64,000 nt of DNA from an uncultured Lutibacter sp. (GTDB taxonomy: Bacteria; Bacteroidota; Bacteroidia; Flavobacteriales; Flavobacteriaceae), in contig NZ_CANLZZ010000001.1 of the NCBI RefSeq assembly GCF_947495725.1, positions 558,001 to 622,000 on the forward strand, in the 5' to 3' direction. The notes beneath the pieces were generated by a model. The model did no database searches, was not told the DNA's origin, and worked only from the letters and a program-made list of their open reading frames with translations. Positions 29,522 through 43,287 of the stretch are shown here, in pieces (position 1 is the stretch's first letter; each line of letters begins with the position of its first letter). Position numbers and translations under genes: made by a program.

Positions 29522-31780
29522 TTACTTCTTGTTAGAATATAGTTCTAATAAATCCATTATAGCTTTTATTAGATCTTCTGTTTCTAACAAAATACTAAAG
29601 TATAATGTAGTGTTTTTAGGACTAGATTCTGTAGTTCTAGTACGTTCAACTTGCTTTTGAGCATATGCAGAAACATCGTTTAACAAACCTTGTTTCTCTT
29701 CTATAATAGAAGATATTTGATCAAAAGAACGCGAATCAAAAATTGTTCTAATCTTTCCAAACAAATGTTTCAGTTTTTCGTCAATTTCTTTTAATTCTTT
29801 TGCCTGATTAACTTTTAATCCTTTGTGATTATTATTAATATGCTTATGACTTACTTTTGAAATAAATGATACAGATTGAGCAATATCTTGTAAATCTCCA
29901 ATAACATCTATATAGAACTTACTAGCACTTAAAGACGATTCATCTAAGTTTTTAATAAAATAGAAAATATTATTTTGTAAATCTTCAATTTCATGCTCTA
30001 ATTTTACAACTGTATTTTTTGCCTTTTTAAGCGTTGGTAAATCTTGTTTTATTAACCCGTTAATGGTATTTTCATTAATTTTACTAACTCTTTTTAAAAC
30101 TTTAGAAATATTATCAGCACTTTCTTCAATAACACCTTTTACAGATTTACTTTCTGTTCTGTTTAAACTATCTTCAGCTTTAATCTCCTTAGACTTTTTA
30201 AGATGATTTAAGGAGTTTCTAACTAATAAAACTACCGCCAATAATAATAAAATAGCAATCATTGTAGGCCCGCCTAAATAAATTAAATAGGCTGCAACTC
30301 CCGAGGCTATAAAAGCACTTATAGCAGTAAAAAACCAACCACCAATTACATTTAAAACACCTGCAACTCTATAAACTGCACTTTCACTACCCCAAGCTCT
30401 ATCAGCTAAAGAAGTACCCATTGCAACCATAAAAGTTACGTATGTTGTAGATAGTGGTAATTTATAAGATGTCGCAATTGAAATTAAAACTCCGGCAACC
30501 ATAAGGTTTACCGCAGCACGCACTAAATCAAAGGCTGGTAATTCATGAGTTTTACCGTGCACTAATTCAATTACTGGTTTTTCAAATTGCTTGTCAATTT
30601 TTTCTTCAATTTTGTTAGGAATAAGCGCAGAAAAATATTTTGAAGTTAATATTGATCCTCTAACTAATACTCTAGATAAAAAAGTTGGTTGAAAACGCTC
30701 CTTGCCATCTCCTTCTCTAGATAAATTAATTTCGGTTTCTGCAACATATCTAGCTTTTCTTGAAAACCAAATAGTTAAAACCATTACTAACCCTGATCCA
30801 AAAAGTAAAAATGTAGGAGTGGCAACTTTTTGACCTAAAACATCCATTGCAAATTCTGATGCTGGTATCCCAGAGCCAGTCCAAGCTTCATAAGATTGCC
30901 ATGCAGCAATAGGAACTCCAATAAAGTTTACTAAATCGTTCCCTGCAAAAGCCAATGCTAATGCAAATGTACCAACGATAATGATAATTTTAAAAATATT
31001 AATTTTAAAGAATTTTATTAAAATATAAGACAAAGCTGACCAGATTACAAAACTAACTGCAACAATTGACAAAACATTGTTTTCTAAAAAATCTTTAATT
31101 GTAGCACCTCCAAATAAGTCAAAACTTTGTTTTGCGATATCTGCTCCTTTAATTCCTTTCATAAGAATAAAATAAACCATTGCTGTTAACGCAACTCCGC
31201 CAAACAAGGCACCTACCCACTTAGCTTTTTTCTCAAAGTTAAACGATAATAACAAACGAGAAACATATTGAACAAATGCACCTACCGAGAATGCAACTAC
31301 CACCGAAAGCAGTATTCCAAATATAATTTGCGTTGCTTTTGATGTATTTATATAGTTTGTTAACGTCGAAAAATCACCCCCATCAGCTCCAATTTTAATC
31401 AAAGCAACAGCAACAGCAGCTCCTAATAATTCAAATACAATTGAAACCGTTGTAGAGGTAGGCATTCCTAGAGTATTGAAAAAATCGAGCAGTAGAATAT
31501 CTGTAATCATTACCGCCATAAAAATAATCATGATATCACTAAACATGAACATTCCTGGGTTAAAGATCCCTTTTCTGGCAACTTCCATCATTCCACTAGA
31601 GAATACTGCTCCACAAGCAATACCAATACTTGCAACAATCATAATAGTTCGAAATGAAACCGCTTTTGATCCAATTGCTGAATTTAAAAAGTTCACAGCA
31701 TCATTACTTACACCAACAACCAAATCAGCAATAGCTAAAATTGCAAGTGCAACAATCATTAATAAATAAATATTATCCAT
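29522..31780 (-). CDS. PiT-family inorganic phosphate transporter fused to a PhoU-like domain
   Basis: 752-residue inner-membrane symporter that imports phosphate. The N-terminal 520 residues hold two inverted PiT repeats: NDAVNFLNSAIGSKAVSFR with GMPTSTTVSIVFELLG, and GNDLVNFIGVPIAAW with KLPLSTTYVTFMVAMGTSLAD. Residues about 540-752 are soluble, helical and coil-rich and resemble PhoU, presumably a built-in regulator; many Bacteroidota PiT proteins carry this fusion, while classic PiT (about 500 residues) does not. Upstream is a Pho-box-like direct repeat with GTTATTTG as -7 element, so expression probably rises when phosphate is short. It is divergent from a second phosphate transporter gene. 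Confidence 0.92.
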   Translation of the reverse strand: MDNIYLLMIVALAILAIADLVVGVSNDAVNFLNSAIGSKAVSFRTIMIVASIGIACGAVFSSGMMEVARKGIFNPGMFMFSDIMIIFMAVMITDILLLDFFNTLGMPTSTTVSIVFELLGAAVAVALIKIGADGGDFSTLTNYINTSKATQIIFGILLSVVVAFSVGAFVQYVSRLLLSFNFEKKAKWVGALFGGVALTAMVYFILMKGIKGADIAKQSFDLFGGATIKDFLENNVLSIVAVSFVIWSALSYILIKFFKINIFKIIIIVGTFALALAFAGNDLVNFIGVPIAAWQSYEAWTGSGIPASEFAMDVLGQKVATPTFLLFGSGLVMVLTIWFSRKARYVAETEINLSREGDGKERFQPTFLSRVLVRGSILTSKYFSALIPNKIEEKIDKQFEKPVIELVHGKTHELPAFDLVRAAVNLMVAGVLISIATSYKLPLSTTYVTFMVAMGTSLADRAWGSESAVYRVAGVLNVIGGWFFTAISAFIASGVAAYLIYLGGPTMIAILLLLAVVLLVRNSLNHLKKSKEIKAEDSLNRTESKSVKGVIEESADNISKVLKRVSKINENTINGLIKQDLPTLKKAKNTVVKLEHEIEDLQNNIFYFIKNLDESSLSASKFYIDVIGDLQDIAQSVSFISKVSHKHINNNHKGLKVNQAKELKEIDEKLKHLFGKIRTIFDSRSFDQISSIIEEKQGLLNDVSAYAQKQVERTRTTESSPKNTTLYFSILLETEDLIKAIMDLLELYSNKK

Positions 31781-32184
31781 TTTTTAGATTTTAAAAAGTA
31801 AATTTAATAAGTTAATTGATATTATACTAGATAAAAAACTTATATCTTCAGAATTTCTGTAGAAGTTGTTAAAAAAAGAAATTGCTAAAACCAATTTTGT
31901 GTTTTTCAATATTAGTATTCGTTTTGTCACTGCAAATAACTAAAAGATTTACGAGTCTAATGTTATCCAAATGTTAACATTTATCGTAAATACCACCAAA
32001 GTTAAAATACGATGATAAATATCACTTTAAACCTTAATCTTTTGAGGTGCAAATTTTATTAAACAGTTAGTTATAAATGTATTTTAAATATTATTTTATT
32101 GTTAATAAACTGGTTAACTTCCAATCTTCGAAACTTTTTTTATTTTAATTAAAATCTGTATGTTTAGTACTTATTACACATTCT
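31781..32184. other. 404-bp divergent intergenic region between two phosphate transporter genes
   Basis: Holds the Pho-type promoter of the minus-strand PiT gene at 31933-31977, leaving a 5' untranslated region of about 145 bases for that gene. For the plus-strand Na/Pi gene I see only a weak TATGTTTA element near 32159-32166 and no phased direct repeat. No coding frame or RNA gene is apparent. Confidence 0.6.
31933..31977 (-). promoter_or_regulatory. Pho-box-like promoter of the PiT-PhoU gene
   Basis: Minus strand: direct repeats TTAACAT and ATAACAT separated by 4 bp (TTGG) at 31960-31977, then 19 bp, then GTTATTTG at 31933-31940 as -7 element. The 7+4+7 geometry is that of PhoB boxes, and 19 bp equals the 8-bp spacing of the neighbouring promoters plus one 11-bp unit. 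The sequence after the -7 (GTTATTTGCAGTGACAAAA) is nearly the same as in the porin promoter. Confidence 0.7.
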
Positions 32185-33966
32185 ATGATTAGAAAAATTT
32201 TTTTCGGAGTATTTTTATCGCTTTTAGCGGTTATATTATATTTTAATCCAAATTTTAAAACAATTTCAGCAGGAGTTGCTATTTTACTTTTTGGAATGAT
32301 AATGCTTGAAGAAGGTTTTAGAGTTTTTACAAAAGGACCTCTTCAAAATATTTTAAAAAAGGCTACCGATAAATTATATAAAAGTATTACAGCAGGTGCA
32401 TTGGTAACTGCTTTAATTCAATCTAGTTCTTTAGTTTCTGTAATTACAATTTCTTTTATTAGTGCAGGTTTAATAAGTTTATCAGGAGGGTTAGGTCTTA
32501 TTTTTGGAGCAAATATTGGAACCACAACCACGGCCTGGTTAGTTGCCGGCTTCGGATTAAAAATAAAAATTTCTACATTGGCTATGCCAATGTTAATATT
32601 TGGATTAATTTTTTCTTTTCAAAAAAAAGTAGCATTAAAAGGTATAGGCAATGTGTTAGCTGGGCTAGGATTCTTTTTTCTTGGAATTCATTACATGAAA
32701 GAAGGATTTGATGTATTTAAAGAATATATAGATTTAACTCAATTTGCTGTTTCGGGTTTTTTAGGGGTTTTAATTTATGCCGGATTGGGAGTTATAATTA
32801 CAACTATTTTACAATCGAGTAGTGCAACATTGGCCTTAATATTAACCGCATTAGCAGCCGGACAAATTGAATATGAAAATGCACTTGCTTTAGCAATTGG
32901 AGCAAATATTGGAACAACTATTACAGCTGTTCTTGGTTCTATAGGCTCAAACATTGCAGGTAAACGATTGGCTGGTGCCCATTTTATATTTAATGTCTCT
33001 ACTGGATTAATTGCTCTAGTATTAATTTTTCCGTTAGCTAGGTTAGTAAACTACTTAGCCAACTTACTTAATATTGCTTCTAATGATTTTACTCTAAAAC
33101 TCGCATTATTTCATACTATTTTCAATATTTTAGGTGTGCTTATAATGATTCCGTTTATTAATTCTTTGGGAAAACTATTATTAAAGATTTTTAAAGAAAA
33201 AAGGGATAAAGATATTGACGAACCAAAATACTTAAACGAAGCAGTTTTAGAGTTTCCAGGGACAGCCATAACTGCATTGATTAATGAATCTAAATTTTTA
33301 TTTAAAAATGCCATTTTTGAAATTGTTGCTCACGGATTAAACATTCACAAAACAGATATACAATCAGATTTAAAAATTAAAAAAATTATTGCAAAATCTA
33401 CTTCTGATATGGAAACAGATGTAGAGAATTTATATTACAAAAAAGTAAAAACTATTTATGGTGAAATTTTAAGATATGCAACTACTGCTCAAAGTAATTT
33501 AAAACTTACTAAAAAACAAAATAGCGCAGTTACAGACATAAAAATTGCAAATAGAAAAATGGTTGAAATTATTAAGGATGTTAGAGAATTAAACAAAAAC
33601 ATAACACTTTCATTATCTTCTGTAAATCCTCATTTATTAAAAGAATACGACAGCTTTAGAAAAAAAGCCACAAAAGTATTACGAATAATATATTTATTTA
33701 GAACTGAAGAAAACCCCGAAAAATATGCTGAGAAACTTCAAGAATTAAAAGTTGATGCTAAAGAAAGTATTCGCCAAAGTAATAAATCTATAGACAAATT
33801 GATACGTAAAGATTTAATTTCTGCTGAAATGGCTGCTTCTTTATTTAATGATAATACTAATGTTAATGATATGATTAAAAAGCTAATTGAGGTTGCTGAA
33901 CTATTGTATGGTAAAAAAGATTCTCTTTTTGAAAATGGGAAAGAAAAAAAGAAAAAAAAGAAATAA
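32185..33966 (+). CDS. Na/Pi cotransporter family protein with PhoU-like C-terminus
   Basis: 593-residue membrane protein of the NptA/SLC34-like group, which couples phosphate movement to sodium. Both inverted-repeat signatures are present: ALIQSSSLVSVITIS (QSSS at 79-82) and TILQSSSATLALIL near residue 210, each followed by GANIGTT-type helices (GLIFGANIGTTTTAWL, LAIGANIGTTITAVLGS). Residues about 370-575 form a PhoU-like helical domain, and the protein ends in a Lys run. Divergent from the PiT gene but without a clear Pho box of its own. The direction of phosphate movement is not decided by sequence: some bacterial relatives export phosphate. Confidence 0.88.
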   Translation: MIRKIFFGVFLSLLAVILYFNPNFKTISAGVAILLFGMIMLEEGFRVFTKGPLQNILKKATDKLYKSITAGALVTALIQSSSLVSVITISFISAGLISLSGGLGLIFGANIGTTTTAWLVAGFGLKIKISTLAMPMLIFGLIFSFQKKVALKGIGNVLAGLGFFFLGIHYMKEGFDVFKEYIDLTQFAVSGFLGVLIYAGLGVIITTILQSSSATLALILTALAAGQIEYENALALAIGANIGTTITAVLGSIGSNIAGKRLAGAHFIFNVSTGLIALVLIFPLARLVNYLANLLNIASNDFTLKLALFHTIFNILGVLIMIPFINSLGKLLLKIFKEKRDKDIDEPKYLNEAVLEFPGTAITALINESKFLFKNAIFEIVAHGLNIHKTDIQSDLKIKKIIAKSTSDMETDVENLYYKKVKTIYGEILRYATTAQSNLKLTKKQNSAVTDIKIANRKMVEIIKDVRELNKNITLSLSSVNPHLLKEYDSFRKKATKVLRIIYLFRTEENPEKYAEKLQELKVDAKESIRQSNKSIDKLIRKDLISAEMAASLFNDNTNVNDMIKKLIEVAELLYGKKDSLFENGKEKKKKKK

Positions 33967-33999
33967 TTAGTCAAATTTATAAAGACTATAATATTGCAT

Positions 34000-34031
34000 A
34001 AAAAAAGACCGCTAAAAAGCGGTCTTTTTTT
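34000..34031. terminator. Bidirectional terminator between the Na/Pi gene and the porin gene
   Basis: Stem with core AGACCGCT/AGCGGTCT, a 4-base loop, and A7/T7 flanks, lying between two convergent genes. Confidence 0.9.
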
Positions 34032-34049
34032 AATAATAAATATGACAAT

Positions 34050-35240
34050 TTAAAAATGTAATTCCACTTGAAATCTATACATTAACTCATTATTTCCTCC
34101 AGACACTTCTAAATGACTAATATCTGTTTGGAATTTTAAACTGTGTCCTACAATATATTTTGAAAGTCCTAAAGTATATTGACTTTCTGGATTTTTACCT
34201 GTAATAGCTTTATCTAACTCAATATTTGTGTAACGTCCTGAAATCTCCCAGTCTTTATTTAATAAAAATCCGGTTTGTAAGTTAAAACCTCGTCCTACCT
34301 GAACCTCATCTCCAGTTAATGAACCATCTGAATTTTTTGCAAAAGGATCATCAGCTGTTCTATCTGAATATTCAGCCATAAAAGAAAATCCGTTGTATTT
34401 AAACATTGCATCAACAAATAGTGTATTTATGTTTGTTTCAAAAAAACCATAATCTGTTGCCATATATGATCCTTGATTACTTCTAGTTTTAACTGCATTA
34501 TTATTGTGGTCGTAACTTACAGCCAATGACAATTTTGGTTTTTCCTCTCTTTGTAAATCGGCTCCTTTATAATCTCCTTTTCCAGAAAAACTTCCAAATG
34601 GAAACATTTCAATACGTCCAGTGTATTGATGCCCACCAAGATTACCTGTAGTTATATTTCTACCTTCACCTTGAGCCATTGAAAATATTTCTTTTACAAT
34701 AAATTTCTCGGTTAAATTAAAATGGTGTCTTAATTGGAAACCAAAATCACGATCTATAGTAAAACGACTATTTAACAAAGATCTATCAACTTGTTGCAAA
34801 TTTGCTGATGAAATAACACGCTCTCTATTACCAGGTAATTTTCCTTGACCAAACCAAAGTTCGAAGTTTTGATAAAAATTCCATTTTAACTGCGCATCCA
34901 AGATATATCTAGGCGCATTACTGGTAAACGGAGAAGCCCCAGACAAGTCTCTATTAGATAAACCTAATTCAATTTTATACTTTAATTTTGGACTGTAAGC
35001 AAAACCATCAAATTTTAATCTGGCCCTTCTTGCTAAAAAATTCGCTTCACTTTTTCCTCCCTCTTCCCAAGTTGACATTCCCAATAGTTGAACCCTTAAT
35101 CCAACTTTCATATCCCAACTGTTATCTTTTCCTACAAGATTAAAAAGTCCTTTACCAAATTTTGAAGAGTTAGCTTCTTGTGAATGAGATAATGATATGG
35201 TGCACAACCATATCATTATAAGTGCTACTTTGATTTTCAT
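34050..35240 (-). CDS. Porin_O_P family outer-membrane porin (phosphate-selective porin type)
   Basis: 396-residue beta-barrel protein with a signal peptide (1-20, ending SHSQ). The barrel shows alternating amphipathic strands and ends in FQVELHF, a C-terminal Phe typical for outer-membrane insertion. Conserved Porin_O_P landmarks include WDMKVGLRVQLLGM, RRARLKFDGFAYSPKLKYKIELGLSNRD and ELWFGQGKLPGNRERVISSANLQ. Family members include the polyphosphate/phosphate porins OprO and OprP. Selectivity depends on loop Arg/Lys residues I cannot judge here, but a Pho-box-like promoter and phosphate-transporter neighbours support phosphate or pyrophosphate uptake. Confidence 0.87.
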   Translation of the reverse strand: MKIKVALIMIWLCTISLSHSQEANSSKFGKGLFNLVGKDNSWDMKVGLRVQLLGMSTWEEGGKSEANFLARRARLKFDGFAYSPKLKYKIELGLSNRDLSGASPFTSNAPRYILDAQLKWNFYQNFELWFGQGKLPGNRERVISSANLQQVDRSLLNSRFTIDRDFGFQLRHHFNLTEKFIVKEIFSMAQGEGRNITTGNLGGHQYTGRIEMFPFGSFSGKGDYKGADLQREEKPKLSLAVSYDHNNNAVKTRSNQGSYMATDYGFFETNINTLFVDAMFKYNGFSFMAEYSDRTADDPFAKNSDGSLTGDEVQVGRGFNLQTGFLLNKDWEISGRYTNIELDKAITGKNPESQYTLGLSKYIVGHSLKFQTDISHLEVSGGNNELMYRFQVELHF

Positions 35241-35263
35241 TTTAAATATCGTTTTTGTCGCTG

Positions 35264-35297
35264 CAAATAACTTAATCTAATGTAAAGTTAATGTAAC
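35264..35297 (-). promoter_or_regulatory. Pho-box-like promoter of the porin gene
   Basis: Minus strand: direct repeats GTTACAT and TTTACAT with a 4-bp spacer (TAAC) at 35280-35297, then 8 bp, then GTTATTTG at 35264-35271. The box occupies the place of the -33 element, as PhoB boxes do at activated promoters. The ATG is 24 bp downstream. Confidence 0.75.
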
Positions 35298-35553
35298 TTT
35301 ATTGTTATTTTACAATTATTTCCTTTATTTCTCTATTTTTTATTTATAATTAGTTAATATTTCTATAACATTACTTTAGTTAACTTAAAATAAGTAATTG
35401 AGTAGCTTTAATTTTGAAGTAATGTTTTTTGTTAACTAACTTTTTAAGAAACGAAATACCAATAAATATTAACTTTCCATTTAATACAATTAATATTGTA
35501 TATGAGCTAATGCATACTTCTTTAATAAAAATTTAGGAATGGGACTAAAAATA

Positions 35554-35579
35554 AAGACCACCAAAGATTTGGTGGTCTT
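35554..35579 (-). terminator. Orphan terminator-like hairpin
   Basis: 12-bp perfect stem AAGACCACCAAA/TTTGGTGGTCTT with a 2-base formal loop. On the minus strand it is followed by a U-rich tail (TTTATTTTTAG); on the plus strand it is not. No annotated gene ends here, so it may mark the 3' end of an unannotated minus-strand transcript. Confidence 0.5.
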
Positions 35580-35824
35580 CTCATTTCAAATTACTGTTGA
35601 CAAAAACGAATATTATATGAAATGTGTACTGTATTTAAAATACGACACAAATATTACATGAAATTTATATTTCTATATGAACAAATTATCATGAAATTAT
35701 TAAGTTTTATAGGTGCTTTTTCACAAACTATATCATTAATTTTCAATTAACCAAATTTTAGACCCTTTTCATTGAAGTGTGTATATAACTGTTTTACAGG
35801 TATTTAAATGATTTGATTAAAAAC

Positions 35825-35880
35825 TTAATGTAAACTTAATGTTAAGTTTAGGTTTATTATATGTAAAGTTAATATATTTG
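35825..35880 (+). promoter_or_regulatory. Pho-box-like promoter of the MORN-like gene
   Basis: Perfect direct repeats TTAATGT-AAAC-TTAATGT at 35825-35842, then 30 bp, then TATATTTG at 35873-35880, a perfect TAnnTTTG. The 30-bp distance equals 8 plus two 11-bp units, and weaker repeats (TTTAGGT, TATATGT) fill the interval with the same period. Confidence 0.65.
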
Positions 35881-35922
35881 AATTATTAAATAACTAAAAT
35901 TAATTTTAAAAAATATATAGAT

Positions 35923-36270
35923 ATGAAAACACTTTTAAACATAGTATTATTATTATTTTGTGTAACAACTTTTGCTCAAGAACAAAAAGTAGATTATAAA
36001 AAAACGGATAACAATCTTGTAAAAGCTACTTATTATTTTACAACTAATACATCTGTTATTGAAAAAGAAGGTTTTTTTAATAAAGATGGTAAATTACATG
36101 GTATTTGGACAAGTTATGATTTAGCAGGAAACAAAACAACAGTTGCTGAATACAAGAATGGTGTAAAGGAAGGTGTTTGGACTTATTTTAAAGAAGACAA
36201 AATAAATATGGTAACTTACAATAATAATAAAATAATTAAAGTAGAGGAAAAAGCTTTGGTGGTTAATTAA
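35923..36270 (+). CDS. Small exported MORN-like repeat protein
   Basis: 115 residues with a signal peptide (1-18, ending TTFAQ). The mature part has MORN/YwqK-type repeats: FFNKDGKLHGIWTSYDLAGNKTTVAEYKNG and VKEGVWTYFKEDKINMVTYNNNK. Relatives are sometimes labelled as adenylyltransferases or antitoxins in databases, but no nucleotide-binding motif is present, so I reject those labels. It lies between the porin and the beta-helix lipoprotein and has its own Pho-box-like promoter, implying a role in phosphate-starved cells that is otherwise unknown. Confidence 0.78.
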   Translation: MKTLLNIVLLLFCVTTFAQEQKVDYKKTDNNLVKATYYFTTNTSVIEKEGFFNKDGKLHGIWTSYDLAGNKTTVAEYKNGVKEGVWTYFKEDKINMVTYNNNKIIKVEEKALVVN

Positions 36271-36295
36271 CTGCTAATAAATTAATGTTCTAAAT

Positions 36296-36333
36296 AAAAA
36301 AAGGTGCAACGATTAATCGTTACACCTTTTTTT
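36296..36333. terminator. Bidirectional terminator after the MORN-like gene
   Basis: Long near-perfect palindrome: GGTG, one mismatch, AACGATTAATCGTT, one mismatch, CACC, flanked by A7 and T7. It lies between convergent genes. Confidence 0.88.
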
Positions 36334-36357
36334 ATTGATTCAGGTTTTTAAATTATG

Positions 36358-38313
36358 TTATAAACTAACATTAATCCATCCCCAACTTGAAATATCAACT
36401 TTAGTTCCTAAGTTATAGTTAGCATTTACAACAACATCTACACCATCAATTTTAACGTTAGAAAGTGCTCCTCCATCTTTCATATCAATGTTTTTAGCAT
36501 ATCCTTCTAAATATAAATTTGTAATTGTTGCTCCAGATTCTTTTTTAAACTGAAGTGCAGTACCATTTACTGTAGAAATTGCTGTTACATTAACAAACTT
36601 TGGATTGTTATTATCTTTATCTCCTTCAAATGCAGTAGAAAAACCAGCAATGGTGTGTGAAATATATGTATTGGTAACAGTACCATTCCAACCTTCGGTC
36701 CAGTCAATTGAATCATCTTCATTATTTTCTAAGTAAATATTTGTTACAGAAGCAGATCCTCCAAAAAACTCTATTCCATCATCGGCTCCATCAATTACAG
36801 CAACATTTTCAATTACAGTTCCTGAACCTACTGCATATAACGAAATACCGTTGTATTGTGATTCAGAGTTAATTTGAGCTCCAGTTCCTTTAATTACAAG
36901 GTATTTTATTGATCCTGAATTATCATCATCTATTGTGCCTCCGTAAATAAAACCACCTACTTCGGCCTCAGCGTCAATACCAGCAGTAGTTGTTGCTTTA
37001 CCACAAATTGTTAATCCTCCCCAATCTGCTGGAGCAGGGTTAACTGAAGACATAATTACTGGGTTTGTTTCAGTACCTTGGATATCAATTTTACCACCTT
37101 TTAAAACAGCGATATAAACATCGACACCTCCTTTATCAGCGGTAATTTTTGTACCAGCTTCTATTGTTAAAGTAACTCCTTCTTGTACAATGTAAGAACC
37201 TGTTAATGCATAATTGGTATCTGCTGTTAGTGTTTTGTTAGCGGTAACATTACCATTTAAAACTTCTAATGCAACAAATTGACCATTAATAAAATTCCAA
37301 CCGGAATAATCAACTTTAGTTCCTGCACTATATGCGTCGGTAGTAGTTGCTGCATTACCATCAATTAAAACGTTGGTTAACGCACCACCATCTTTCATAT
37401 CAATATTTTTATCATAACCACTTAAAAATAGGTTTGTAATAGTAGCTCCTGACTCTTTTTTAAACTGTAATGCCGTTCCTCCAACAGTTGAAATTGCAGT
37501 TAAGTTATTAATTTTAGGGTTATTATTGTCCTTATCCCCTTCAACTACTGTAGAAAAACCTGAAATTGTATGAGCAACATAAGCATTATCAATTGTTCCG
37601 CTCCAACCCTCTGTCCAGTCAATAGCGTCATCTTCATTATTCTCAAGGTATAAATTACTAACAGAAACTGTACCTCCAAAAAATTCTACACCATCATCAG
37701 AACCATTAATTACTGCTATATTTTCAACAATTGTACCCGATCCAACTGCATAAAAAGAAACCCCGTTATATTGAGATTCAGAATTAATTTGAGCTCCTGT
37801 ACCCTTAATAACTAAATTTTTAATAGAACCTGAACTGTCTGCATTATCTGTTCCTCCATAAATAAAACCTCCTACTTCTGCTTCAGCATCAATACCTGCA
37901 GTAGTTGTTGCATTTCCACAAAGGGTTAACCCACCCCAATCACCAGGATTACCATCAATTGAAGTCATAATAACCGGACTATTATTTGTTCCATTAATAT
38001 TTATTTTACCTCCTTTTAAAACAGCAATATAAACATCTGTCCCTCCATTGTCTGCTAATATTTGAGTTCCTGCCGGAATTGTAAATGTTACTCCTTCTGA
38101 AACAATGAATGACCCTGTTAATTCATAACTAGTTGAAGCATTTAATATAAAATCTTCTTCTAATTTTCCGTCCAATACTCCAATTTTTAAGTTCTCAATA
38201 ACTGAGCTCGACTGAGCAACTATTGGATCTGGATCACTATCATCACAACTAAATAATGTCAATACAGCAACTAACGCTGTTATTCCAATAAATTTAAAGT
38301 TCGATTTTTTCAT
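36358..38313 (-). CDS. Outer-surface lipoprotein of two beta-helix-like repeats
   Basis: 651 residues. The signal peptide ends in TLFSC (Cys23), followed by DDSDPDP, an acidic stretch like the export signals of Bacteroidota surface lipoproteins. Two repeats of about 300 residues follow (45-343 and 350-648, period 305), each Gly/Asn/Asp-rich with short strands typical of a right-handed beta-helix. Highly conserved stretches in both copies include DVYIAVLKGGKI, EAEVGGFIYGGT, INSESQYNG and ALQFKKESGATITNL. It sits next to a TonB-dependent receptor and has a Pho-box-like promoter, so it may capture a phosphorus-containing ligand for that receptor. That role is inference. Confidence 0.78.
   Translation of the reverse strand: MKKSNFKFIGITALVAVLTLFSCDDSDPDPIVAQSSSVIENLKIGVLDGKLEEDFILNASTSYELTGSFIVSEGVTFTIPAGTQILADNGGTDVYIAVLKGGKININGTNNSPVIMTSIDGNPGDWGGLTLCGNATTTAGIDAEAEVGGFIYGGTDNADSSGSIKNLVIKGTGAQINSESQYNGVSFYAVGSGTIVENIAVINGSDDGVEFFGGTVSVSNLYLENNEDDAIDWTEGWSGTIDNAYVAHTISGFSTVVEGDKDNNNPKINNLTAISTVGGTALQFKKESGATITNLFLSGYDKNIDMKDGGALTNVLIDGNAATTTDAYSAGTKVDYSGWNFINGQFVALEVLNGNVTANKTLTADTNYALTGSYIVQEGVTLTIEAGTKITADKGGVDVYIAVLKGGKIDIQGTETNPVIMSSVNPAPADWGGLTICGKATTTAGIDAEAEVGGFIYGGTIDDDNSGSIKYLVIKGTGAQINSESQYNGISLYAVGSGTVIENVAVIDGADDGIEFFGGSASVTNIYLENNEDDSIDWTEGWNGTVTNTYISHTIAGFSTAFEGDKDNNNPKFVNVTAISTVNGTALQFKKESGATITNLYLEGYAKNIDMKDGGALSNVKIDGVDVVVNANYNLGTKVDISSWGWINVSL
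36370..37266 (-). repeat. Second internal repeat of the beta-helix lipoprotein gene
   Basis: Codes for residues 350-648; aligns with the first repeat at a 305-residue offset with only small gaps. Confidence 0.85.
37285..38181 (-). repeat. First internal repeat of the beta-helix lipoprotein gene
   Basis: Codes for residues 45-343. Protein identity with the second repeat is high, while the codons have diverged, which argues for an old duplication held by selection rather than an assembly artefact. Confidence 0.85.
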
Positions 38314-38347
38314 TTTTAGTTTTATTTATTTTTAAATTATTTATATG

Positions 38348-38392
38348 CAAATAACCTTTTTTAGTGCTACTAAGCTCTTAAGTAAATATTAA
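38348..38392 (-). promoter_or_regulatory. Pho-box-like promoter of the beta-helix lipoprotein gene
   Basis: Minus strand: TTAATAT and TTAAGAG with a 4-bp spacer (TTAC) at 38375-38392, then 19 bp, then GTTATTTG at 38348-38355. The second repeat is degenerate (5 of 7), so this is the weakest of the six boxes, but spacing and -7 element match the PiT promoter. Confidence 0.55.
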
Positions 38393-38458
38393 GTCTGTAT
38401 TATGAAATTCTACAAAAAATGGTGAATGTTAAAAAATTGTTACTTAATACTCCATAAA

Positions 38459-38496
38459 AAAACAGCTGATTGTAGTTAACTACAATCAGCTGTTTT
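38459..38496. terminator. Terminator after the TonB-dependent receptor gene
   Basis: 17-bp perfect stem (core ACAGCTGATTGTAG/CTACAATCAGCTGT) with a TTAA loop, flanked by A and T runs; 20 bp past the receptor stop. Confidence 0.9.
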
Positions 38497-38516
38497 ATAG
38501 TAATTAAATGTTTTTT

Positions 38517-41294
38517 TTAAAAAGTATACTTTACACCAATTATTAAGTTCATTCCTTTTTTATAAGAACTTATTATTTCATCTGTTTCAACTGAAGTAGA
38601 TAAGTTTCTTACTTTTTGCGATTGCTCAATATATGGATCTAAAAGGTTTTTTCCTGTTAATTTTATTGAAAGGTTTTTATTCAATGTTTTACTTAAAACC
38701 AAATCTAATGTTACAAACCCCTTTTCTAAAATTTCATCATTATATAAATTAGCACTATTTGCAAAATCTTCTGGAGCTCCTAAGGCAAATATTTTATCAG
38801 ATGAGTAATTTGCTGCTAATGTTGCTACGAACTCCTTTTCTCTATTATCTGTAAAACTAAGAGCTGTGTTTAAAATAAAATCTGATGCTCCTTGTAAATC
38901 TGACTCCGTTTTTCCTTTATACTGAAACTCTTCCAATAAATCTTGATTAAACCACATTTTTGTGGCGTTAAAATTTAAATTTAAGTTGCTATTTTCTTTT
39001 TCCAAAAGTGCTACTCTAGTTTCAAACTCTAAACCATAAACATTGGCTGTTTCACCTGTATTATCATATGAAAAGTTTCCTGAAGATCCTCTTGTTTGAG
39101 ATAAGTTTATAGGGTTTTCTATTCTTTTATAGAAACTTGTTACTGAAACCAACTCTTTTGAAGTTGGGAAAAGTTCCCATTTTATGTCTATATTATAATT
39201 TGTAGACTCTTTTAAATCTGGATTACCTTTTGTAACACGGCCAACTGGTGAAACATATTCAAAAGGAGCAAGTTCTTTAAATTCAGGTAAGGTAATTGTT
39301 TTACTTCCTGCAAAACGAATAAAACTATTCTCGTTTAATTCGTACTTTAAATTTAAACTTGGTAAAAAATTATTATAGTTATTTGTTAAACTTCCAACTC
39401 TACCTACATAATTTGCTACATCCCATTCAATTTCTAAATCATCTGTTTCGTATCTAACGCCAACATTACCCGTAAATTTTTTATGTCCAAAACTAACATT
39501 TACAAAACCAGCATATGCATCTAAATTTGCGTTATAAACATCTGGATTTCGTTCTCTTAAAATTACAGAACCATTGTTAAAATATAATTGTTGAAAGGCT
39601 TCAGATAAATTATCTACGGATGCAACTTGAAAACCTTTTGCACGAACACCCAAAAATAATGAACTAAAATTTCTTTCTTTTTGTCGGAAATTAGCACCAA
39701 ATGTCAATTTTATTGGATGATCAGCATCTTCATTAAATGTAATTTTATCTTTTATATATCCGTTAAGTTCAGTGTCTTTAATTTTTTGACTTGATTTTCT
39801 TTGTTGATAATCACCAACGTGTGCAAATTGTACAGTATTGTTGTTAACAAAGTCTATTGGCGCAACATCACTAGGTAAAAAATCAGTTTCAATATTTACT
39901 TCATTTCTAATACGATTTGGTTCTTTAGCAATAACATAATTATAACCTGTTGCCCATTCCAATTCATTATTTTCAGTTAAATCATGTGTTCCAGAAATCT
40001 GGTTTACCATCATTCTAGTTTGTTTTAAATTTTGATCTCTTACAAATGCACCAAATTCTGATGGATCTTGATCAAAAACATATCCTTCTCCATTTCTTCC
40101 TTGCTCATATAAATTATCATTGGTTTTATTAACAAACAAACTGTTGTAACCTATTTTATTATTTTCATTCAATCTATACTTTAAATTTAACAACCCTGTA
40201 GTATTTATGTTAGATCTAAAACTTTCAGCATCAGTAAATGAGTTATCTAATACATTTGATCGGTATTTTTTAAAAATACCTTTTTCATGATTGTATGAAT
40301 TATTATGAGATACAGTTGCAAAAATTGATAATTCCTTTCCAAATACATCTAACTTTTTTCCTCCTGATAGTGAAAAACCTAAATTTAAAGGAGTACTTCT
40401 AGTTTCAGTATTCCAACTTTGATAAGTAATTGCATCAACCAAAGCATAAGGTTGTGTATAAAAACCTAAACTAACATCATTTATATTTTGTGTTGCTCTA
40501 AAATTTCCAAAAACACCATCTTTTAAAATATTAGTATTTGATCCGGCGCTAACATCAATTGTAAATTTTCCTCCATTATAACCTTTCGTTGTAATATCAA
40601 CATTACCCGATGTTTGATCTGCGTAGTTTTCGGTTGAATACGTTTTACTTATTCCAACATTTTGAATAATTCCTGTTGAAAATAAATTTAAATCAATGTT
40701 TTTCTTTTCAACATCATCAGACGGAATAGGTAAACCATTCATAGTTGAAGATAAATAACGATCACCCAAACCACGAATATAGATATCTCCCGAGCCTTCG
40801 TTTTTTGTTACTCCCGAAATTTTAGAGGTAGCTGCGGCGGCATTTGAAACACCTGTTTTAGCCAATCTATCTGCACCTATACTCTCTTTAATTACTGTAG
40901 CTTTCTTTTGTTCTGTTAAAAGTGCAGCTTCCGATTCTTTTTTAGTGGTTCCGGTAATTTGAATTTCATTTAATGAAACTCCTTGGCTTGCACTTAATGT
41001 TTTATTTAGTGTAATTGTTTCTCCTTCTAAAACAACAACATTTGGCACTTCTACCGACTGATATCCTATAAAACTGAATACAACTGTATAAGTTCCAGGA
41101 TCTACTTGTAATATATAATTACCTTCAAATTCAGTAGTTGTTCCTATTGAGGTTCCTTTTATAAAAACATTTGCGAAAGGTAAAGGAGAATTATCAACTT
41201 CCTTATCTAAAACAATACCTGTAATTGTTCCCTTAGTTTGACCAATTATTAATGTATTTACAAATACAAATAGTACTATAAAAAATTTCTTCAT
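38517..41294 (-). CDS. TonB-dependent outer-membrane receptor
   Basis: 925 residues; energised import of a large or scarce substrate across the outer membrane. Order: signal peptide 1-18; carboxypeptidase-regulatory-like domain about 22-110 (GTITGIVLDKEV...FIGYQSVEV); plug about 130-240 with GSGDIYIRGLGDRYLSSTMNG; beta-barrel to the C-terminus, ending IIGVKYTF. There is no SusD partner; the two-repeat lipoprotein downstream may take that place. The promoter has a clear Pho-box-like repeat. Siderophore receptors also have this layout, but the setting argues for phosphate or an organophosphate. Confidence 0.88.
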   Translation of the reverse strand: MKKFFIVLFVFVNTLIIGQTKGTITGIVLDKEVDNSPLPFANVFIKGTSIGTTTEFEGNYILQVDPGTYTVVFSFIGYQSVEVPNVVVLEGETITLNKTLSASQGVSLNEIQITGTTKKESEAALLTEQKKATVIKESIGADRLAKTGVSNAAAATSKISGVTKNEGSGDIYIRGLGDRYLSSTMNGLPIPSDDVEKKNIDLNLFSTGIIQNVGISKTYSTENYADQTSGNVDITTKGYNGGKFTIDVSAGSNTNILKDGVFGNFRATQNINDVSLGFYTQPYALVDAITYQSWNTETRSTPLNLGFSLSGGKKLDVFGKELSIFATVSHNNSYNHEKGIFKKYRSNVLDNSFTDAESFRSNINTTGLLNLKYRLNENNKIGYNSLFVNKTNDNLYEQGRNGEGYVFDQDPSEFGAFVRDQNLKQTRMMVNQISGTHDLTENNELEWATGYNYVIAKEPNRIRNEVNIETDFLPSDVAPIDFVNNNTVQFAHVGDYQQRKSSQKIKDTELNGYIKDKITFNEDADHPIKLTFGANFRQKERNFSSLFLGVRAKGFQVASVDNLSEAFQQLYFNNGSVILRERNPDVYNANLDAYAGFVNVSFGHKKFTGNVGVRYETDDLEIEWDVANYVGRVGSLTNNYNNFLPSLNLKYELNENSFIRFAGSKTITLPEFKELAPFEYVSPVGRVTKGNPDLKESTNYNIDIKWELFPTSKELVSVTSFYKRIENPINLSQTRGSSGNFSYDNTGETANVYGLEFETRVALLEKENSNLNLNFNATKMWFNQDLLEEFQYKGKTESDLQGASDFILNTALSFTDNREKEFVATLAANYSSDKIFALGAPEDFANSANLYNDEILEKGFVTLDLVLSKTLNKNLSIKLTGKNLLDPYIEQSQKVRNLSTSVETDEIISSYKKGMNLIIGVKYTF

Positions 41295-41314
41295 TTTTTG
41301 TCTTAATTATTGCG

Positions 41315-41348
41315 CAAAGGAATAATTAATACGTAAACGAAACGTTAA
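41315..41348 (-). promoter_or_regulatory. Pho-box-like promoter of the TonB-dependent receptor gene
   Basis: Minus strand: TTAACGT and TTTACGT with a 4-bp spacer (TTCG) at 41331-41348, then exactly 8 bp, then TTCCTTTG at 41315-41322 (one mismatch to TAnnTTTG). Same geometry as the porin promoter. Confidence 0.75.
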
Positions 41349-41392
41349 TAGCTCGTTATTATATGATGATAAAAGGGTTAACTTAACGTTAA

Positions 41393-41788
41393 CTAATTTG
41401 ATTTTAAAAATGCCAAAGCCTCTAAGTTTGGAGACTCAATTTTCTCAGCCTGTAGAATTTGAACCGGTAATTGCGATTTATTTAAGGACATTTCTATATT
41501 AGCAATTTCTACTGTTTTATAACCAATAAATTTATAAATTAAAGTGTATGAGCCAGGTTTTAGATTGAATTTAAAAGAACCATCAATCTCAGTCTTAACG
41601 GTTTTATTTAACTCCTTAACAGTTACTTCTGCAAAAAATAAAGGTTCTTCATTATTTTCAGCATCCAAAACAACTCCTTTAACCTCTACTTTCTGATTGT
41701 AACCAGAAATTAAAGAACCTATTTTTAAAGATTGACCTGATATATTGTTTGAAATTACAACTAAAAAAAGCACTAATAAATATCGCAT
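41393..41788 (-). CDS. Stand-alone carboxypeptidase-regulatory-like exported protein
   Basis: 131 residues with a signal peptide (about 1-18, ending SGQ). The mature part is one carboxypeptidase-regulatory-like beta-sandwich: VEVKGVVLDAENNEEPLFFAEVTVKEL, then EIDGSFKFNLKPGSYTLIYKFIGYKTVEI. The same domain opens the TonB receptor that follows 98 bp later in the same direction, so it resembles a detached copy of that N-terminal extension. It ends in a short tail LEALAFLKSN. A Pho-box-like promoter precedes it. Function unknown; it might assemble with the receptor. Confidence 0.8.
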   Translation of the reverse strand: MRYLLVLFLVVISNNISGQSLKIGSLISGYNQKVEVKGVVLDAENNEEPLFFAEVTVKELNKTVKTEIDGSFKFNLKPGSYTLIYKFIGYKTVEIANIEMSLNKSQLPVQILQAEKIESPNLEALAFLKSN

Positions 41789-41811
41789 TCTGTTATTAAA
41801 TTTTTACAAAA

Positions 41812-41845
41812 CAAATAACACTGTTTAATGTTAAGTAATGGTTAA
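41812..41845 (-). promoter_or_regulatory. Pho-box-like promoter of the 41393-41788 gene
   Basis: Minus strand: TTAACCA and TTAACAT with a 4-bp spacer (TTAC) at 41828-41845, then 8 bp, then GTTATTTG at 41812-41819. The -7 octamer is identical to those of the PiT, porin and beta-helix genes. Confidence 0.7.
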
Positions 41846-41955
41846 TTATTAATTATTTAATCATTTCGTAATTGTTAAGATTCCATTTGTATGGAACTTT
41901 AAAAATGTAATATATTAGTTATATTGCGTCACAAATAAATACAACAACGACAATA

Positions 41956-43287
41956 ATGAATTGGAATCAGCTACTCTCATTAAAAAGATATGGAGATAAT
42001 CATACTCGATTAAGAATTGAACAAGATGAAACTCGACTGGGTTTCGAAGTAGATTATGACCGAATAATTTTTTCCGATTCTTTTAGAAGCCTGCAAGATA
42101 AAACTCAAGTAATTCCATTATCAAAAACCGATTTTGTACACACACGTTTAACTCATAGTTTAGAGGTTAGCGTAGTTGCTCGATCTTTAGGTAGAATAGT
42201 TGGCGAAAAAATATTAAAAAAACATCCTAAATTAAATGATTTAGGTTATAAAATGAATGATTTTGGAGCCATTGTTGCAACAGCAGCCTTGGCTCATGAT
42301 ATAGGAAATCCACCATTTGGTCATAGTGGAGAAAAGGCAATTGGAGAATATTTTATAAATGGAAATGGCGCAAAATATAAAAGTGATCTTTCTCCTAAAC
42401 AATGGCAAGATTTGGTAGATTTTGAAGGAAATGCCAACGGGTTTAGAATTTTAACCGAAACAAAAGAAGGTATTGAAGGTGGTTTACGTTTGTCTTATGC
42501 AACTTTAGGAACTTTTATAAAGTATCCTAAAGAATCACTTCCAAAAAAACCAACCTCTCATATAGCCGACAAAAAATACGGTGTTTTTCAATCTGAACTC
42601 AATTTTTTTAATGAATTAGCTCAAGATTTAGGTCTTATTTCAACTGGGAAAAATGGCGATATAGCTTTTAAACGTCATCCATTAGCATATTTAGTTGAAG
42701 CCGCTGACGATATTTGTTATACAATTATTGATTTTGAAGATGGAATTAACTTAGGACTTATTGAAGAAGAATTTGCATTAGAATATTTAATAAAATTAGT
42801 TAAAGACACTATAAATTCAGAAAAATACTACCAATTAAAACATAAAAAAGATCGTTTAAGTTATTTACGAGCCTTAGCAATTGGAACTCTTATTGGTGAA
42901 GCCACTAGAGTATTTTTAGAAAACGAAGACGCTATACTAAATGGAGACTTCCCCCATTCTTTATTAGATAAATGTAAATATGAAGCACAAATTAACGATA
43001 TCATTAAAATTAGTGTAGAAAAAATTTATAAGAGTCGTGAAGTTATTGAGAAAGAACTAGTTGGTTATTCAATAATAAGTAAATTATTAGATGTTTTCTT
43101 AACAGCAATAAATAATAAGTTTGAAAATAAAATGAGTAATTACGATAAATTAATATTAAATTTGTTGCCAGAAAATTTGCAAAAACCACCAAAAACCCTG
43201 TATCTTAGAACTTTAACTATTTGTGGCTTTGTTGCTAGCTTAACCGATGGCTTTGCTTTTCAACTTTATAAAAAAATAAATAGTTAA
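41956..43287 (+). CDS. dgt: Deoxyguanosinetriphosphate triphosphohydrolase-family protein
   Basis: HD-domain phosphohydrolase that splits dNTPs (classically dGTP) into nucleoside and triphosphate; cytoplasmic. 443 residues. Metal-binding motif residues: His in HTRLTHSLEVSVVARS near residue 60, the HD pair in ALAHDIGNPPFGHSGEKAIGEYF near residue 110, and the closing Asp in VEAADDICYTIIDFEDGI. It has FRSLQDKTQV before the HD domain as in Dgt enzymes. Monocistronic. Which dNTP is preferred cannot be read from the sequence. Confidence 0.94.
   Translation: MNWNQLLSLKRYGDNHTRLRIEQDETRLGFEVDYDRIIFSDSFRSLQDKTQVIPLSKTDFVHTRLTHSLEVSVVARSLGRIVGEKILKKHPKLNDLGYKMNDFGAIVATAALAHDIGNPPFGHSGEKAIGEYFINGNGAKYKSDLSPKQWQDLVDFEGNANGFRILTETKEGIEGGLRLSYATLGTFIKYPKESLPKKPTSHIADKKYGVFQSELNFFNELAQDLGLISTGKNGDIAFKRHPLAYLVEAADDICYTIIDFEDGINLGLIEEEFALEYLIKLVKDTINSEKYYQLKHKKDRLSYLRALAIGTLIGEATRVFLENEDAILNGDFPHSLLDKCKYEAQINDIIKISVEKIYKSREVIEKELVGYSIISKLLDVFLTAINNKFENKMSNYDKLILNLLPENLQKPPKTLYLRTLTICGFVASLTDGFAFQLYKKINS

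Follow-up and report, generated by a model that had tools for sequence, protein, structure and literature searches.

We analysed a stretch of 64,000 nucleotides (the window) from an uncultured Lutibacter sp. (NCBI RefSeq assembly GCF_947495725.1, contig NZ_CANLZZ010000001.1, positions 558,001 to 622,000), in which phased 7-bp direct repeats precede genes of phosphate uptake. We consider it very likely that these repeats are operators of a PhoB-like response regulator of this Lutibacter-like bacterium. The genome holding the window is 4.24 Mb in size, and the PHO4 protein of the window has its best named match in Lutibacter agarilyticus (90% identity). The genes in question form a phosphate island (29.5-41.8 kb of the window) with a PHO4-family transporter, a Na/Pi symporter, a porin, proteins of 115 and 651 amino acids (aa), a TonB receptor and a carboxypeptidase-regulatory-like protein of 131 aa:

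29522-31780, minus strand: PHO4-family phosphate transporter, 752 aa (Pfam PF01384, E-value 2.2e-28)
34050-35240, minus strand: porin of the Porin_O_P family, 396 aa (Pfam PF07396, E-value 5.4e-7)
35923-36270, plus strand: 115-aa protein conserved in the island, without a Pfam match and with a single weak NCBIfam match under its cut-off
36358-38313, minus strand: FII-like protein, 651 aa, without a Pfam match
38517-41294, minus strand: TonB-dependent receptor, 925 aa (Pfam PF14905, PF13715, PF07715)
41393-41788, minus strand: carboxypeptidase-regulatory-like domain protein, 131 aa (Pfam PF13715)

The original prediction described six 18-bp sites, each followed by a -7 octamer at gaps of 19, 8, 30, 19, 8 and 8 bp, and all of these sites, octamers and gaps were found in place. 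Four octamers are identical (GTTATTTG); the remaining two are TATATTTG and TTCCTTTG. Some details had to be revised. The porin and TonB-receptor promoters had been credited with two repeats but carry three half-sites each (35280-35308 and 41331-41359). The rule that every gap equals 8 plus a multiple of 11 holds for five of the six sites (gap 8 or 19) but not for 35825-35842, where the orientation had been misread and the real feature is a reverse-oriented array at 35828-35867. The 38375 box is weak, with half-site scores of 3.9 and -0.4, in line with its description as degenerate. The promoter features are:

31960-31977, minus strand: PHO4 box, forward, two half-sites, gap 19
31933-31940, minus strand: -7 octamer of the PHO4 promoter, GTTATTTG
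35280-35308, minus strand: porin box, forward, three half-sites, gap 8
35264-35271, minus strand: -7 octamer of the porin promoter, GTTATTTG
35828-35867, minus strand (gene on the plus strand): reverse array of four half-sites upstream of the 115-aa gene
35828-35834, 35839-35845, 35850-35856 and 35861-35867, minus-strand reading: half-sites of the reverse array
35873-35880, plus strand: canonical -7 octamer of the 115-aa gene, TATATTTG
38375-38392, minus strand: weak box of the FII-like gene, forward, gap 19, with octamer GTTATTTG at 38348-38355
41331-41359, minus strand: TonB-receptor box, forward, three half-sites, gap 8, with octamer TTCCTTTG at 41315-41322
41828-41845, minus strand: box of the 131-aa gene, forward, gap 8, with octamer GTTATTTG at 41812-41819

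The 18-bp sites have the build of a Pho box, namely 7-bp direct repeats separated by 4-bp spacers in an 11-bp register. Judged by position alone, the array also stands in for the upstream promoter element, keeping a constant distance to the -7 box. We compared their number with chance. Using a half-site matrix from relatives, we found six pairs in the island (31781-41955), all of them intergenic, that score at least 8 and are followed by TTTG after a gap of 8 or 19, while 200 Markov sequences matching the island's intergenic regions in composition and length (1641 bp) gave a mean of 0.02 and a maximum of 1. These six pairs include those at 31960, 35280, 41331 and 41828; the other two belong to the triple arrays, as their upstream pairs, and the six pairs therefore represent four promoters.

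The same phase was found in relatives. Scanning named genomes yielded 80 loci that surround PHO4, and among their intergenic pairs scoring at least 11, 77 had TTTG at gap 8 and 37 had it at gap 19, with 0-7 cases at each remaining gap within 0-49 (gap 30: 3). This count excluded the stretch of 450 bases in front of 78 PHO4 genes; the gap-19 figure consists partly of upstream pairs of triple arrays and partly of second PHO4 copies, and still contains the L045 PHO4 promoter. Gap 30 was rejected as a third spacing class, with its three cases at this threshold and a coincidental match at 35825. At a threshold of at least 9, 19 cases had gap 30 versus 0-12 at other gaps (8 and 19 aside), an excess that longer arrays could explain.

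We then counted in-phase pairs (score at least 8) gene by gene; both this count and the relatives' phase count used a matrix of window half-sites, as did the scores given below for the rprY-like loci and the Aquimarina reverse pairs, and from the gene-by-gene count matches that covered less than 35% of the query (115-aa and 131-aa genes exempt) or lay too near a locus end were dropped. Such pairs were present in 49 of 54 porin promoters, 25/38 for the TonB receptor, 53/93 for PHO4-family genes, 5/5 for the 131-aa protein and 8/39 for the FII-like gene, which in our reading of the gene order is often second in an operon. The porin consensus (47 promoters) consists of three half-sites close to ATAACAT TAAG TTAACAT TAAN TTAACAT, then 8 bp, GTTCTTTG and CAGCGACAAAAA. 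The CAGCGACAAAAA element directly after the porin -7 box is itself conserved in the window (35243-35263) and in relatives, and the PHO4 promoter of the window has a similar copy.

One could argue that the repeats are simply a conserved strong core promoter with an extended -33 region and no regulator, and the gap-19 class, whose second half-site lies about where a -33 element would be, fits this idea. The 11-bp unit, however, recurs at gap 8, at gap 19, in triples and in reverse arrays 27-48 bp from the -7 box, and it is absent from the relatives' promoters of ribonucleotide reductase (0/34 in phase) and dGTPase (0/41). We regard a regulator-free core promoter as extremely unlikely.

Two models were built from relatives without the window sites, R1 from 87 gap-8 sites and R2 from 54 PHO4 sites, and used to scan the genome of the window (E-value up to 10; 58 R1 and 57 R2 matches, from 150 of 8190 and 150 of 9980 candidates scored; E-values are rough). 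With R1 the window sites ranked 1 (131-aa gene, 1.5e-4), 2 (reverse array, 2.6e-4), 6 (porin, 0.14) and 11 (TonB receptor, 0.22), and the region upstream of phoB ranked 5 (0.12). With R2 they ranked 1 (PHO4, 7.8e-6), 2 (porin, 9.3e-4) and 4 (131-aa gene, 0.042), and phoB ranked 3 (0.010). The 38375 box was not among the listed matches of either model. The R1 matches at ranks 3 and 4 (C3:367643 and C2:219338; E-values 0.0055 and 0.0059) lie at or in open reading frames, look like chance and were rejected as new targets. Among the matches outside the island, 21 (phoB included) were inspected, in 20 stretches, and apart from phoB no convincing target was found among these; some are intergenic. 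One of these (C5:49080, E-value 0.36) stands 30 bp before a lipoprotein-like gene.

In a family scan with R1 (60 genomes, E-value up to 0.003, stricter filters, 104 candidates scored per genome), matches were found in 48 genomes, our own included. Of 94 matches, 2 were our own and 92 fell in the 59 other genomes. Seventy-five of the 92 stood close before the genes seen here or pstS: the 115-aa gene accounted for 27 (in reverse, within 90 bp), porins for 24 (one with a mis-set start, one identified via Pfam), TonB receptors for 14, FII-like lipoprotein genes for 7 and pstS for 3 (within 60 bp). Another 11 neighboured the gene of a porin, a TonB receptor, an FII-like protein, PstS or a dGTPase at another distance or orientation, and 6 were unrelated (before or in rpiB/RNase R twice, AraC, dnaB, IMP dehydrogenase and an extracytoplasmic function sigma factor). 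Three genomes (G024, G026 and G047; 9 matches) share contigs with training loci. Without them, the five classes numbered 25, 22, 13, 6 and 2, with 15 others, so that 68 of 83 matches in 44 genomes remained close before the listed genes. Unrelated genes were not hit equally often; an equal frequency there would have spoken against the proposal. The matches concentrate before phosphate genes and phoB. These scans support the proposal of a PhoB-type operator of this lineage with a regulon that includes genes without a known role, in which the identity of the regulator and the response to phosphate would follow by inference.

Enrichment before pst genes had also been expected. Among the 60 genomes, 8 of the 9 with a strong PstS had an R1 match in the roughly 1.6 kb upstream on the same strand, three of them directly before pstS; pstS promoters were absent from the training sets, though G047 is one of the nine. 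PF12849 scored above cut-off in 26 of 120 family genomes and strongly (E-value below 1e-30) in 10; a matrix scan (this one, like those for chance, PhoX, phoB and reverse arrays, with a matrix from relatives' sites) gave an in-phase pair in 4 of the 10 strong PstS loci (one weak) versus 0/20 with weaker PF12849 matches. In our own genome PstS was not found, PstC, PstA, PstB and PhoU not having been searched; its sole weak match (contig 3, 401252-401458) lies within what looks like the gene of an OxyR/LysR-type regulator. By this PstS search the genome lacks the PstSCAB gating of PhoR that marks an E. coli-type Pho system, and there may be no Pst system for the PhoR-like kinase to use in sensing.

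A search with PF00486 gave three OmpR-type regulators in the genome. One is encoded by a phoB-like gene outside the window (G000 contig 1, 812899-813603), which has a receiver and an OmpR-type DNA-binding domain and is followed by a PhoR-like kinase gene. Its best models are PhoB; the other two regulators match RprY best. A single phoB homologue (E-value up to 1e-60) was found in 115 of 120 family genomes, and in six Aquimarina loci (L061, L064, L068, L069, L074, L076) phoB and phoR adjoin PHO4. In the best 30 of the 115 genomes, reverse pairs (score at least 12) were present upstream of phoB in 24 of 30 loci, with 0.38 expected from shuffles, and sense pairs in 2 (0.15 expected); none of these loci lies within a training locus. 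The enrichment before phoB that had been predicted is present, in the reverse orientation.

The arrays might instead bind another OmpR-type regulator of like 11-bp geometry, such as RprY or an ArcA-like protein, with the phosphate genes being targets for some other reason. Two RprY-like regulators are indeed encoded in the genome, and a comparison is offered by Riemerella, a flavobacterial relative. Its PhoP motif is reported to resemble the ArcA motif of E. coli closely (PMC9603813), and the core by itself is therefore no specific mark. Speaking against such a regulator, strong pairs stand upstream of phoB whereas the rprY-like loci (L002, L003) have no pair scoring 11 or more, and R1 matches concentrate on phosphate-uptake genes and pstS. 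Control by such a different regulator seems very unlikely to us.

The forward sites are thus very probably PhoB operators, as far as sequence comparison can tell. Phosphorylated PhoB would bind head to tail on 11-bp units with the core TTAACAT. At the porin, TonB-receptor and 131-aa promoters the last half-site ends 8 bp before the -7 octamer, and at the PHO4 promoter (weakly also at the FII gene) it ends 19 bp before it, a helical turn farther upstream. With the array ending 8 or 19 bp before the octamer, PhoB would occupy the position of the -33 element and bring RNA polymerase to a -7 box that could not work unaided. Computation establishes the sites, their phase, their conservation and their concentration on the phosphate island and phoB, and we infer PhoB as the binder, low phosphate as the signal and activation by the forward sites. 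At phoB and the 115-aa gene the array is reversed, upstream of a TA-type -7 box.

Several points weigh against control by PhoB. No in-phase pair was found before the island Na/Pi symporter in relatives (0/22), which was dropped as a target. Enrichment before phosphatase genes, also predicted, was not supported among PhoX-family genes, which had an in-phase box in 1 of 27 loci (3 of 30 dropped, with the open reading frame at the locus edge), a count that is hard to read since the family is mixed. Out-of-phase pairs, pooled over 35 other gaps, occurred in 22/54 porin, 21/93 PHO4 and 6/38 TonB-receptor promoters, and since the sequences are related the counts are not independent events. R1 and R2 sites were chosen by TTTG, gap and a minimum score from the window-half-site matrix; the two models and the relatives-based matrix contain no window sequence, yet they are not fully independent of it. 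The regulator lies below the curated cut-offs (TIGR02154 and NF053854 at 204.7 of 296.2 and 204.2 of 270 bits), for which reason we call it PhoB-like, and the kinase also falls below the PhoR model cut-offs. In Riemerella, PhoP gave 583 peaks in DNA affinity purification sequencing (DAP-seq; PMC9603813), and deletion of phoPR raised pstS 8-fold, the opposite sign (PMC5399024). In Flavobacterium johnsoniae, OprP was not induced by phosphate depletion (-1.3, adjusted p 0.245; PMC8115612).

We next consider the reverse class. As originally read on the plus strand, the 35825 pair scores 1.3 and 1.3; three bases along, on the minus strand, the scores are 10.0 and 7.3. In 41 of 42 loci (window included) the 115-aa gene has a strong reverse pair no more than 150 bases from its start, and in 6 of 42 it has an in-phase sense pair. 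As orthologues keep the reverse array and few have in-phase sense pairs, the gap of 30 at 35825 is a coincidence of a near-palindrome. The arrays keep the 11-bp register: the slot means are 8.7, 8.3, 1.7 and 4.5, falling to -8.0 in the fifth; the third slot scores at least 3 in half of the loci and the fourth in 80%, and with the third slot shifted to ten other registers the averages are -6.1 or lower. Between the end of the main pair and the -7 box, which is mostly of the TA type, lie 27-48 bp. A TAnnTTTR or TAnnnTTTR box followed the reverse pair of the 115-aa gene in 32 of 41 loci, counted without a shuffle control, and by manual count a TAnnTTTR box stood 45-48 bp downstream in 15 of the 24 phoB loci with a reverse pair.

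Reverse arrays could be leftovers of forward sites that serve a divergent neighbour. The left neighbour of phoB is divergent in 24/24 loci with a reverse pair, and in one genome (G021) a single site is common to a TonB-receptor gene and phoB. Toward the divergent gene, however, TTTG is in phase at only 3 of the 24 sites and not in our own genome, and this gene was rejected as the target of the phoB site. Moreover, the six Aquimarina loci have reverse pairs (scores 10.1 to 15.5) although their upstream PHO4 is co-directional with phoB, and the divergent porin of the window, whose start is at a distance of 588 bp, has a box to itself. We judge leftover sites to be unlikely.

The -7 boxes of gap-8 and gap-19 sites differ in their first bases. 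Within the octamer, TTTG alone was used for selection, so the first octamer bases are free evidence. TA was found in 0/87 gap-8 sites and GT or TT in 80/87. The second-place A was kept in 45 of 54 gap-19 PHO4 sites; the PHO4 site of the window (gap 19, GTTATTTG) is of the minority type. In ordinary upstream regions of the same loci, TA occurred at the start of NNNNTTTG in 62/320 (1.78x background) and GT in 14/320 (1.02x). In other bacteria, the A of this TA is the base flipped out at promoter opening. In our reading, the forward gap-8 promoters may be built to need an activator. The flavobacterial -7 octamer spans -12 to -5 (PMC9723704).

These features can tentatively be joined, although we would sooner doubt than accept the whole. 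Flavobacteriaceae would use one operator unit in two arrangements: forward arrays would activate from a distance of 8 or 19 bp to the -7 box, while reverse arrays with TA-type -7 boxes would mark an opposite or feedback response (phoB, 115-aa gene), orientation thus encoding the sign of control by one regulator; the gap-8 promoters, their -7 box lacking TA, would be silent without PhoB. In F. johnsoniae, phoB rises under phosphate depletion (3.06; PMC8115612), which speaks against simple repression by the reverse class at phoB.

We compared the operators with known systems. The E. coli pho box likewise consists of 7-bp direct repeats with 4-bp spacers in 11-bp units, and PhoB, of the OmpR family, binds it in tandem head to tail (PMC4415409, PMC3348028). 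Here the core is TTAACAT instead of CTGTCAT, a Bacteroidota -7 octamer replaces the -10 hexamer, and, unlike in E. coli, there are promoters with three half-sites (porin, TonB receptor) and conserved reverse arrays. In E. coli phoA the gap to the element starting at -12 is 10, compared with 8 here. An equal gap at phoA was considered and rejected, the flavobacterial octamer being -12 to -5 (PMC9723704) and the distances differing by 2 bp. The Bacillus subtilis PhoP box has TTAACA repeats with a near-identical core and similar repeat spacing; it differs in belonging to Gram-positive promoters. A literature search for the orientation of these repeats listed no paper with the term TTAACA.

Among Bacteroidota, Riemerella anatipestifer has a PhoR/PhoP pair as here; its PhoP motif from DAP-seq has TTTAACA as the most conserved bases and autoregulation was demonstrated by electrophoretic mobility shift assay (EMSA; PMC9603813), half-site spacing and phase to the -7 box not being given in the part available. 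The PUSIV cluster of F. johnsoniae (Fjoh_0541-0549) contains OprP, PhoR, PhoB, a PF07715/PF13715/PF14905 receptor and the FII pectin-lyase-fold lipoprotein, and the receptor, FII and phoB are induced by phosphate depletion (PMC8115612). We matched these counterparts to the island by domain and order, not by sequence comparison. There phoBR lies inside the cluster, whereas in the window genome it lies elsewhere and the island has PHO4 and Na/Pi transporters. Bacteroides fragilis PhoB binds the pstC promoter in EMSA and controls phosphate transporters (PMC3547664); PhoRB regulates pst genes there, with no mapped binding site in the part available, while no PstS was found in the window genome.

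The core motif and phosphate induction are thus known in relatives. New are the helical phase to the Bacteroidota -7 box, the triple half-sites, the TA-less -7 boxes and the conserved reverse class; phase, TA loss and reverse arrays were not met in the literature searched, which had limited coverage and few subscription papers. Phosphate limits growth in sea and soil, where Flavobacteriaceae are major polymer degraders. A computable operator of fixed geometry would make the phosphate regulon readable from genomes and metagenome-assembled genomes, and it names the TonB receptor, the FII-like lipoprotein and the 115-aa MORN-like protein, none of which has a settled role, as probably phosphate-controlled. 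It also raises the questions of how Bacteroidota RNA polymerase opens TA-less -7 promoters and how a Pho response works in a genome where no pstS was found.

The two proteins without Pfam matches were looked at individually. From an alignment of 17 sequences we read the 115-aa protein as MORN/YwqK-like and putatively exported. In the 651-aa protein, Cys23 is invariant in 8/8 aligned sequences, and the gene has an internal duplication (915-base spacing, 75% identity across 300 nt). A structure model (predicted local distance difference test score 82.9, predicted template modelling score 0.55) has two beta-rich halves with weak matches in the PDB to beta-helix enzymes (template modelling score at most 0.23 for the four with E-values up to 0.001), suggesting a lipoprotein-like, FII-like protein with two predicted tandem beta-helix domains. 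Two more 7-4-7 pairs on the minus strand, which may be accessory sites, precede the FII-like gene (38426-38443) and the TonB-receptor gene (41375-41392).

The gene order dGTPase, TonB receptor, FII-like lipoprotein, 115-aa protein, porin and PHO4 is repeated in many of the 80 relatives' loci. The dGTPase gene (41956-43287 in the window) is present in 43 of the 85 sources that were compared, mostly in divergent orientation to the island's TonB-receptor end. Two PHO4-family genes per locus were seen in L009, L013, L030, L042, L057 and others; in the first three, a separate triple box with gap 8 precedes the upstream copy. The two R1 matches between an rpiB-family and an RNase R-size gene come from two genera (G045 contig 8 at 886671 and G009 contig 10 at 208237) and could reflect either chance or a shared target; an RNB domain was confirmed in the RNase R-size gene of G045.

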